From: Pseudooceanicola marinus
GTDB lineage: Bacteria; Pseudomonadota; Alphaproteobacteria; Rhodobacterales; Rhodobacteraceae
NCBI RefSeq assembly: GCF_002786295.1
Contig: NZ_PGTC01000017.1
Coordinates: 186,001 to 250,000 of the forward strand
DNA: 64,000 nt
Reading direction: 5' to 3'
Positions 45,099-47,724 of this stretch are shown here, in pieces; the first letter of the stretch is position 1; each line of letters starts with the position of its first letter. The notes under the pieces are model-generated. The model made no database searches, had not been told where the DNA came from, and saw only the letters and a program-made list of their open reading frames with translations. A program made the position numbers and the translations under genes.

Positions 45099-45284
45099 TG
45101 TTGGGTGCGTCGCCTTTTGGGGGGACGAGAATTGGGAAGCCGGTGCAAGACCGGCGCTGCCCCCGCAACGGTCAGATCCGCAAGGCCTTTCGCCAGCGGC
45201 CACCGGACAGGACGGGTCCGGGAAGGCGGCGGAAGGTCGGGGCCATTTGCCCCGGGCGGATCGAGCCCGGAAACCAGCCCGACA
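45099..45284 (+). ncRNA. Cobalamin riboswitch aptamer upstream of gbcAB
   Basis: A complete B12 aptamer on the plus strand. The core GGGAAGCCGGTGCAAG followed by ACCGGCGCTGCCCCCGCAACGGT (45134-45173) and the 3' B12 box GAGCCCGGAAACCAGCCCG (45263-45281) match the conserved blocks of the family, in the right order and orientation. P1 closes by TGTTGGG (45099-45105) with CCCGACA (45278-45284, one G-U pair). The leader continues 125 bases to the gbcA start through GC-rich segments able to form an expression platform; the AAGGAGG site at 45397-45403 is the likely sequestered element. Cobalamin should therefore repress gbcAB. Confidence 0.93.
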
Positions 45285-45409
45285 TTGCGCCGAACCGCGG
45301 GTGGCGGTGGTGGCGGCACCCGGTCCCCGTGCGTCCTCGCGGGGCCTGTGCCGTCCTGCCGTGGCCCAACCCAATTTCCCCGGGTGCGTCCCGGTCAAGG
45401 AGGCTAGCC

Positions 45410-46645
45410 ATGTACGTTCAGGCCAAGGCACGAGACATGCTCAGCCGGCGCAAGCCCGGCCACTCCCTCGAGCAGGGTTTCTATACCGATCCGGAGATCT
45501 TCGCTCTGGACATGGAGAACATCTGGTATCGCGACTGGCTGTTCGCGACCCCGGCGGCCGCCATGCCCAAGGGTGGTAGCTATGTCACCCACAAGGTCGG
45601 CCCCTACCGCGTGATCATCGTGAAAGGACAGGACGGCGAGATCCGCGCCTTCCACAACACCTGCCGTCACCGCGGCTCGATCCTGTGCAAGGCCGACAAG
45701 GGCAACGTGGCCAAGCTGGTCTGTCCCTACCACCAGTGGACCTATGAACTCGACGGCCGCCTTCTGTGGGCCCGCGACATGGGACCCGATTTCGACGCCG
45801 CCGCCCACGGGCTGAAGCCGGTGCATTGCCGCACCGTGTCCGGTCTGGTCTACATCTGCCTGGCCGAGGACGCGCCCGATTTCGACGCCTTCGCCGCCAC
45901 TGTCGCCCCCTACCTGGACGTGCATGACCTGGGCAACGCCAAGGTCGCCCACCAGTCCACCATCGTCGAGAACGGCAACTGGAAGCTGGTGTGGGAAAAC
46001 AACCGCGAGTGCTATCACTGCGCCGGCAACCACCCCTCGCTCTGCCGCACCTACCCCGAAGATCCCACGATCACCGGCGTGGCCAAGGACGGCACCTTCC
46101 CACCCAAGGTCGAGGCGCATTTCCAGCGGCTTGAGGCCGGTGGCGCGCCCTCGCGCTTCCAGATGGCCGAGGACGGACAGTACCGCATCGCCCGCATGCC
46201 GCTGCTGGACGGCGCCGAAAGCTACACCCTGAACGGCAAGATCGCCGTGCAGAAACGCCTCGGCCGCGTGCCCTTCCTGGATGCCGGCACCCTGCTGAAG
46301 TTCCACTATCCGACCACCTGGAACCACTTCCTGTCGGATCACTCGATCACCTTCCGCGTGACCCCGCTCAGCCCGACCGAGACCGAAGTGCAGACCACCT
46401 GGCTGGTCAACAAGGACGCGGTCGAGGGCGTGGATTACGATCTGGAGAACCTGAAGACCGTCTGGGAACACACCAACGACGAGGACCGCCGGGTCGTCGA
46501 GGACAACCAGCAGGGCATCAACTCCCCCGCCTATGTCCCCGGCCCCTATTCAGAAACCCACGAGGACGGCGTTCTGCAATTCGTCGACTGGTACTGCACG
46601 ACCCTGGGCAACCGGATCGACCCGGTCAGGCTGGCGGCGGAATGA
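45410..46645 (+). CDS. gbcA: Rieske oxygenase, glycine betaine demethylase alpha subunit (GbcA-like)
   Basis: A 411-residue Rieske non-heme-iron oxygenase. The [2Fe-2S] ligands are C85, H87 (CRHRG) and C105, H108 (CPYHQW). The mononuclear-iron domain has [17 protein letters not shown] (about 200-216), and the C-terminal [21 protein letters not shown] and [17 protein letters not shown] segments closely resemble GbcA of Pseudomonas, which demethylates glycine betaine to dimethylglycine plus formaldehyde. Other quaternary amines (stachydrine, carnitine-like) remain possible substrates. It is the first gene after a cobalamin riboswitch, starting at an ATG with AAGGAGG, and overlaps gbcB by 4 bases. 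Confidence 0.87.
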
Positions 46646-47724
46646 ACGTTCCCAACCGCTCCCTCGCCCAGCCGATCAACACCTGGGACGGCTCCGCGCT
46701 GCTGGAATGCGTCGCGGTGCTGCCCGAGGCACCCGATGTCGTGACCTTCAGCTTCGCCGCCGAAGACGGGTCGATCTTCTCCTACCTGCCCGGCCAGTTC
46801 GTCACGCTTGAACTGCCGGTGCCGGGCGGGCCGCTCTATCGCACCTACACGATCTCCTCCACGCCCTCGCGACCGCTGTGCCTGACGGTGACGGTGAAGG
46901 CACAGGAAGGGTCCATCGGCACCCGCTGGATGCTGGACAACCTGAAACCGGGGATGAAGCTGAAGTCGACCGCCCCGGGCGGCACCTTCACCAGCCACCA
47001 TCACCAGGCAGAGAAGTACCTGTTCATCTCCGCGGGCTCCGGCATCACCCCGATGAAGTCGATGACCACCTGGTTCTACGACACCGGGCGGCCCTCGGAC
47101 ATCGTCTTCGTCAACTGTGCCAAGCGTCCCTCGGAAATCATCTTCCGCGAGACGCTGGAACACATGGCCTCGCGCACCGACCAGCTGAAGATCAAGTGGG
47201 TGGTCGAGGAAAGCGACCGCTTCCGCCCCTGGGCCGGGTACGAGGGCTTCTTCAACCAGCTGATGCTGGGCCTTATCGCCCCCGACTATCTGGAGCGCGA
47301 GGTGTTCTGCTGCGGCCCCGAGCCTTTCATGCAGGCCGTCCGCGAGGCGCTGCAGGGACTGGGCTACGACATGGAGCGTTATCACCAGGAAAGCTTCCAG
47401 GCTCCGACCGCTGCCCTGGCCGAGGACTATGCCGAAGACGATGTCATCCCCGACGAGGACATCAAGGCGCAGGTCCGCTTCGCCACCTCCGATGTCACCG
47501 CCACCTGCGCGCAGACCGACACCGTTCTGTCGGCGGCCCGTTCGGCAGGCCTCAACATCCCTTCGGGCTGTACCTTCGGTGTCTGCGGCACCTGCAAGAT
47601 CAAGAAGACCAAGGGCGACGTGCACATGGTCCACAACGGCGGGATCACCGACGACGACATCGACGAGGGCTATATCCTCGCCTGCTGTTCGCATCCCATC
47701 GGCGAGGTCGAGGTCGAGGTCTGA
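46642..47724 (+). CDS. gbcB: Glycine betaine demethylase reductase subunit (GbcB-like)
   Basis: A 360-residue electron-transfer protein. It has an FAD domain ([25 protein letters not shown], about 52-76), an NAD domain ([14 protein letters not shown], then CCGPEPFM about 225) and a C-terminal plant-type [2Fe-2S] ferredoxin with CTFGVCGTC and the last Cys in LACCSHP. It passes electrons from NAD(P)H to the Rieske oxygenase. The ATG overlaps the gbcA stop (ATGA), so the two subunits are coupled and share the riboswitch. Confidence 0.9.

Follow-up and report, generated by a model that had tools for sequence, protein, structure and literature searches.

In the alphaproteobacterium Pseudooceanicola marinus, a cobalamin (vitamin B12) riboswitch stands directly before a gene pair resembling gbcA and gbcB, the oxygenase and reductase genes of glycine betaine demethylation. 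The pair lies in the window, by which we mean the whole stretch of DNA that was analyzed (64,000 nucleotides; contig NZ_PGTC01000017.1, positions 186,001 to 250,000). The switch is real, it recurs among relatives, and it is tied to gbcAB. We propose that GbcAB is probably an O2-dependent, B12-independent stand-in for the B12-dependent betaine demethylase MtgBCD, and that the riboswitch keeps it off when B12 is plentiful. We also lean, with somewhat less assurance, toward the broader hypothesis that in many marine Rhodobacterales and some rhizobia-like bacteria the B12 level chooses the route of glycine betaine, either through MtgBCD, which would pass methyl groups to folate and methionine, or through GbcAB, which would release formaldehyde. 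The elements of the unit are as follows.

45086..45296, plus strand: cobalamin riboswitch aptamer RF00174 (cmscan, 99 bits, full length)
45397..45403, plus strand: Shine-Dalgarno-like AAGGAGG of gbcA (by sequence and position)
45410..46645, plus strand: gbcA-like Rieske oxygenase, 411 amino acids (Pfam Rieske and Ring_hydroxyl_A domains; best NCBIfam model GbcA)
46642..47724, plus strand: gbcB-like reductase, 360 amino acids (Pfam FAD, NAD and 2Fe-2S domains; best NCBIfam model GbcB)

The only match above its gathering score on either strand of the whole window (cmscan, Rfam 15) is RF00174 at 45086-45296 (+), which exceeds the cut-off of 31.5 bits with an E value of 1.6e-23 and covers model positions 1-189, that is, the full model. 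No Rfam match on the minus strand of the window reaches a cut-off, and a chance or minus-strand match is ruled out. An earlier reading of the DNA made from its letters alone (hereafter the sequence-only reading) had described a complete B12 aptamer leading into gbcAB rather than into metH, and in this it was correct, since gbcAB lies downstream on the same strand; the interval it gave for the aptamer, 45099-45284, falls inside the slightly wider match. The aptamer core deviates at 1 of 69 conserved positions in a leave-one-out comparison with 25 other gbcA-associated aptamers, and its 3' end is 113 nt from the gbcA-like gene, which begins with an ATG at 45410 and shares 4 bases with the gbcB-like open reading frame (ORF).

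This arrangement is not a local oddity of the window. We scanned 80 gbcA loci (59-87% identical) with Rfam and found a full-length aptamer on the same strand before gbcA in 26 of them, its 3' end 92-161 nt before the aligned gene start; because the 80 were kept as the best of at least 593 relatives, this proportion is no population frequency. Ruegeria, Shimia, Sulfitobacter, Leisingera, Loktanella, Rhodobacter, Gemmobacter, Roseibium, Labrys, and Rhizobium are among the genera. Given that strand and position recur in this manner, the association of aptamer and gbcA is beyond chance. Further gbcA copies were looked for in 50 genomes of the loci, and a second copy in genome G235 (locus L109) has an intact aptamer, too.

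Cobalamin riboswitches are reported to precede a B12-independent enzyme when its B12-dependent counterpart is encoded in the same genome (PMC2211319). A candidate counterpart is known from Ruegeria pomeroyi, in which both glycine betaine demethylation and methionine synthesis require MtgC and MtgD, and for which DUF1638 and RamA are predicted to recharge the cobalamin of the MtgBCD system (Mausz et al. 2025, PMC12478193). Fitness data also link DUF1638 to the split methionine synthase of Phaeobacter (Price et al. 2018, PMC5764234); since subunits of this kind make methionine as well, DUF1638 is the mark of a system with two uses. With DUF1638 (PF07796) as the marker for MtgBCD, we find it in 25 of 25 riboswitch genomes versus 15 of 25 riboswitch-less ones in the 50-genome set, and the remaining loci give 1/1 and 18/29, respectively. 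Combined by locus, the counts are 26/26 versus 33/54 (Fisher p 7e-5). By genome they are 28/28 versus 32/52 (p 7e-5), with the window added, G235 assigned to the riboswitch genomes because of its second copy, and G246 entered a single time. Because the riboswitch-gbcA genomes share this companion of the B12-dependent MtgBCD, the isozyme rule seems to hold here, with MtgBCD as the partner; the sequence-only reading, which saw a departure from the usual targets of cobalamin riboswitches, is not supported on this point. The genome of the window itself encodes DUF1638 with MtgC adjoining (80% identical to Roseibium MtgC), MtgD at another place (69% identical), and one MTTB (MtgB-family) gene above cut-off. 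By analogy with R. pomeroyi, these MtgB-family, MtgC and MtgD proteins may well act on betaine.

The leader behind the aptamer holds two further structures that could serve as an expression platform.

45294..45308, plus strand: P13-like hairpin ACCGC-GGGTG-GCGGT (from sequence; directly 3' of the aptamer)
45296..45370 (approximate limits), plus strand: alternative long helix using the hairpin's strand (minimum free energy fold of the window)

Their shared strand makes the two mutually exclusive. Pairing between the hairpin loop and the aptamer's CCCCC loop would be possible. Among 14 relatives, 97.1% of cells are paired in the hairpin, which is nearly invariant and hence offers no covariation, and 92.9% are paired in the long helix compared with 49-63% for slid versions of it, figures to be read with the choice of helices in mind, as the helices were defined on one member and on the consensus of these very sequences and are favored by this. 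Changes in the long helix are mostly one-sided, from G-U to G-C, with one pair changed on both sides. The minimum free energy fold of the window contains the long helix, and that of locus L034 contains the hairpin together with UCUCC paired with the Shine-Dalgarno GGAGA, a fold that suggests translational repression with B12 bound. In the mechanism that we propose, bound B12 would let the aptamer hold the hairpin behind it, and the strand so freed could base-pair with the Shine-Dalgarno region and stop gbcAB from being translated, while MtgB, MtgC and MtgD would demethylate betaine onto tetrahydrofolate. At low B12 the hairpin would yield to the long helix, gbcAB would be translated, and GbcAB would oxidize betaine to dimethylglycine and formaldehyde without B12.

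The solved chains nearest to the gbcA-like protein are 3n0q (674.2 bits) and 3vca/4qup (about 640 bits). We take 3vca to be the stachydrine demethylase Stc2. The residue numbering of 3vca matches the one used for Stc2 in PMC10952381, according to which Ala223 and Trp353 contact the product. Homology of the gbcA-like protein to 3vca extends over the full length (639.7 bits), and the Cys-X-X-Cys pair and Trp353 are conserved, but Ala223 aligns with residue 222, which is Thr here. The Cys-X-X-Cys motif is CYHC at 201-204, and both Cys residues are present in all 95 aligned proteins; such a pair near the iron site is described as a feature of some quaternary-amine (group V) Rieske oxygenases (PMC10952381), and the gbcA-like protein has it in addition to the Rieske and catalytic domains of that group. 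One gene of this oxygenase type is found in the window's genome, further matches being just 30-31% identical. Thr occupies position 222 in 27 of 28 riboswitch proteins versus 23 of 67 others. Among the 11 loci with Sox-, DMGDH-, or GbdR-like neighbors but without an OYE-type gene, 10 likewise have Thr there (L033, one of these, is itself a riboswitch locus), whereas none of the 21 loci with an OYE-type flavin oxidoreductase does. In the four riboswitch genomes with a second copy more than 55% identical (G201, G203, G217, and G235), the riboswitch copy has Thr and the other has Val, Val, Ile, and Ala, respectively. When Thr222-type genes alone are tallied by hand, DUF1638 is present in 27/27 riboswitch genomes versus 8/21 others. 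We infer that the split at residue 222 may separate glycine-betaine from proline-betaine types, which would make glycine betaine a plausible, if not a proven, substrate of the riboswitch-controlled enzyme.

In some relatives, damage to the aptamer or its loss goes together with the absence of DUF1638. Among the matches listed, the nearest relative found is L006 (Oceanicola sp. S124, 87%), in which the metH-gbcA neighborhood is kept and the aptamer is broken, a forced alignment showing the loss of 27 of 68 conserved positions; its leader gives no Rfam match up to E 1, and DUF1638 was not found in the genome. A covariance model, R1, was built from 26 aptamers (those of the window and of 25 of the 26 loci, L037 being omitted as a near copy of L036) and run on 32 loci. 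With this model the damaged aptamer of L108, a Gemmobacter copy that is sister to the riboswitch-bearing L084, scores 50.8 bits versus 156.3 for the intact L109; 14 of its 68 conserved positions are lost, and its genome is without DUF1638. Near riboswitch-bearing genes on the gbcA tree, L105, L107, and L082 likewise have neither aptamer nor DUF1638, and the tree implies at least 10 gains or losses of the riboswitch. As part of the hypothesis that B12 chooses the route, we lean toward the view that the RNA switch persists for as long as a genome has MtgBCD and tends to degenerate once MtgBCD is gone.

A number of observations weigh against these proposals. An independent-pairs test on the gbcA tree is not significant (p 0.06-0.25), with 6 pairs in all, 3-5 in agreement and none in conflict; thus, the link between riboswitch and DUF1638 is suggestive beyond kinship rather than established. 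DUF1638 is moreover a proxy, MtgC itself having been sought in the window's genome and the fetched loci, and gbcAB lacks a riboswitch in 32 of the 60 DUF1638 genomes counted. In L009 the aptamer is reduced to a 47-nt piece (32 bits) and in L046 it has an internal deletion, though both genomes have DUF1638. In the latter, a Granulosicoccus gbcA leader, both aptamer ends are kept and the middle is apparently gone (L046:4809-4882; 18.9 bits over 74 bases), a deletion that may lead to constant expression. Two of the riboswitch members have drifted, L025 at 12 of 72 and L084 at 7 of 71 conserved positions, and the remaining 24 deviate at 0-2. The anti-Shine-Dalgarno pairing is found in 76.5% of cells, without covariation, and is short in the window. 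Finally, both proteins fall below the equivalog cut-offs of NCBIfam, the gbcA-like protein with 516.7 bits against 670 for GbcA (NF058607) and the gbcB-like protein with 389.1 against 500 for GbcB. The names gbcA and gbcB, taken over from the sequence-only reading, are thus those of the best models and remain approximate. The NF058607 cut-off is likewise out of reach for ten relatives taken from loci with and without a riboswitch, which score 467-530 bits, and it may therefore be tuned to another branch.

The sequence-only reading offered a different rationale, in which gbcAB, metH and core-MetE form one B12-responsive methionine and one-carbon (C1) module and betaine oxidation supplies C1 units or dimethylglycine when MetH is idle. 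Both neighbors lie on the opposite strand in the same neighborhood, as it had stated:

40965-44879, minus strand: metH (profile searches)
39590-40831, minus strand: core-MetE of the PRK06520 kind (434.7 bits against a cut-off of 313)

The two genes adjoin gbcAB in L006 as well as in the window, and metH lies downstream of gbcAB in L080 and L007. However, metH is in the flank of only one of the 26 riboswitch loci (L080), MetH (PF02965) is encoded in 7 of 25 riboswitch genomes versus 18 of 25 riboswitch-less ones, and L006 retains the neighborhood but not the aptamer. The module is thus out as a general rule, and we regard this explanation as highly improbable; neither the inclusion of metH and core-MetE in the B12-responsive unit nor an idle MetH as the reason for control finds support in these counts. 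What survives is the tie between betaine demethylation and B12 scarcity, as expression at low B12 is likely, but not its metH and methionine rationale.

It is also very unlikely, in our estimate, that gbcAB serves B12 synthesis by providing glycine for 5-aminolevulinate and methyl or C1 groups from betaine, switched on together with the B12 pathway. The four other cobalamin riboswitches in the window's genome (five RF00174 matches in total) would suit such a role, as would the reported stimulation of B12 production by betaine in fermentation (PMC8123684). Nevertheless, RF00174 occurs somewhere in all genomes of the 50-genome set, including the 10 without DUF1638, which have no intact aptamer at the gbcA copies examined, and the recurrent neighbors of riboswitch-gbcAB are nrd genes rather than identified cob genes (most neighbors being without annotation). 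Less easily dismissed, though still unlikely, is the same switch acting on another quaternary amine such as proline betaine or carnitine, with the enzyme backing up a different MttB-family B12 methyltransferase. The closeness of the Stc2-type chains, the missed GbcA cut-off, and the report that such bacteria can carry as many as seven MtgB-type genes in one genome (Mausz et al. 2025, PMC12478193) speak for this. The distribution of Thr222 described above, both across neighborhoods and between the two copies of the four riboswitch genomes, argues for glycine betaine instead, and the window's genome has a single MTTB gene above cut-off.

Our preferred reading, in which GbcAB stands in for MtgBCD, would extend a known isozyme rule to a new, catabolic pair, provided that repression, substrate, and MtgBCD activity are as we suppose. 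The arrangement shares with MetE/MetH a B12 riboswitch before the B12-independent enzyme and a B12-dependent counterpart in the same genome, but the pair here is catabolic, its enzymes are unrelated, and its C1 products differ (formaldehyde from GbcAB versus methyl-tetrahydrofolate from MtgBCD). Cobalamin riboswitches also control nrdHIEF or nrdAB, the B12-dependent partner being NrdJ. That case is connected with ours by a riboswitch-nrdH unit in the window's genome and, in L039, by a riboswitch-nrdHIEF unit back to back with riboswitch-gbcAB, although the reaction differs. The GbcAB of Pseudomonas and Chromohalobacter resembles the window's pair in its best NCBIfam models and its two-gene make-up; the window's pair differs in scoring below the equivalog cut-offs and in having a riboswitch instead of an adjoining dedicated regulator or dimethylglycine genes. 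MtgBCD(E), the proposed counterpart, is unrelated in enzyme and chemistry, and MtgCD doubles as methionine synthase in R. pomeroyi (PMC12478193).

In searches of the PMC literature, no title or abstract opening described a cobalamin riboswitch before a betaine demethylase. The main text of Mausz et al. 2025 (PMC12478193) has "riboswitch" solely in a reference title. In PMC3766115 there is a category of "isozymes of B12-dependent enzymes" and a table that counts 15 Rhodobacterales genomes, and "betaine" is absent from its main text. It was not until 2025 that roseobacters were described to demethylate glycine betaine, a major osmolyte of the sea, in a B12-dependent manner. If our hypothesis is correct, B12 supply would decide the fate of betaine methyl groups (folate and methionine, or formaldehyde), such bacteria could keep using betaine once B12 runs out, and the gbcAB genes that stand alone without betaine regulators would be explained. 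It would also mean that, within carbon and nitrogen catabolism, a riboswitch governs a pair of routes of which one depends on B12 and the other does not.

The neighborhoods of gbcAB were compared over flanks of up to 5 kb, with clusters of neighbors named from one or two representatives each. Riboswitch-less gbcAB is accompanied by a LysR regulator in 30 loci, an OYE-type oxidoreductase in 21, and a TetR regulator in 14, as well as by sarcosine-oxidase-like (Sox-type) genes in clusters of 5-7 loci each (the small "soxD" cluster being named by position only); the LysR, TetR, OYE, and Sox-type clusters occur in none of the 26 riboswitch loci. A GbdR-like cluster, whose representative scores 167.3 against a cut-off of 480, is present in 12 loci, one of which (L033) has a riboswitch. 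Class Ib ribonucleotide reductase genes (nrdEF) flank gbcAB in four riboswitch loci (L022, L023, L033, and L039) and in two riboswitch-less ones (L010 and L021); the riboswitch before nrdHIEF in L039 is a second, divergent one. The absence of the LysR, TetR, OYE, and Sox-type clusters, the nrdEF genes beside four riboswitch loci, and the Roseibium arrangement given below all count in favor of GbcAB as a stand-in for MtgBCD.

In the window's genome, another RF00174 match lies directly 5' of nrdH (TIGR02194, above cut-off), and the ORFs that follow are nrdI, nrdE, and nrdF by position and likeness, only nrdH having been scanned; together they would encode a B12-independent ribonucleotide reductase. 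This riboswitch-nrdH/nrdIEF-like unit is at L093:5765-10022 (G000:C9). Among the matches listed, nrdH-like ORFs stand behind a riboswitch in G204, G206, and G213 as well. In G206 a 51-residue piece, 78% identical to the C-terminal end of GbcB, lies beside nrdF (L127:9654-9806, minus strand), far from the intact riboswitch-gbcA of that genome, and may be a remnant of an earlier gbcAB-nrdHIEF neighborhood.

In two Roseibium loci (L025 and L027), riboswitch-gbcAB is divergent from genes for an MtgC-like corrinoid protein (below the MtgC cut-offs), DUF1638, a PF13769 protein, and a methyl-tetrahydrofolate:corrinoid methyltransferase. The idea that this corrinoid cluster is a betaine demethylase only was dropped in view of the methionine synthesis by the same kind of subunits (PMC5764234, PMC12478193). 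Two of the ORFs, L025:1684-2583 and L025:2576-2974 (both minus strand), lie between DUF1638 and the methyltransferase; one product is the PF13769 protein, and the other has 299 residues and no Pfam or NCBIfam match. Both proteins are also encoded in L027.

The window's genome encodes two MetE-C-terminal-like proteins. The one at 39590-40831 (-), of the PRK06520 kind and above cut-off, lies directly behind metH, and the other (L092:3008-4132, plus strand) is more distant and below all cut-offs. Such MetE homologs are called questionable by Mausz et al. 2025 (PMC12478193). Just past the gbcAB operon, an ACR3-family arsenite efflux protein is encoded at 48915-50201 (-), above cut-off.

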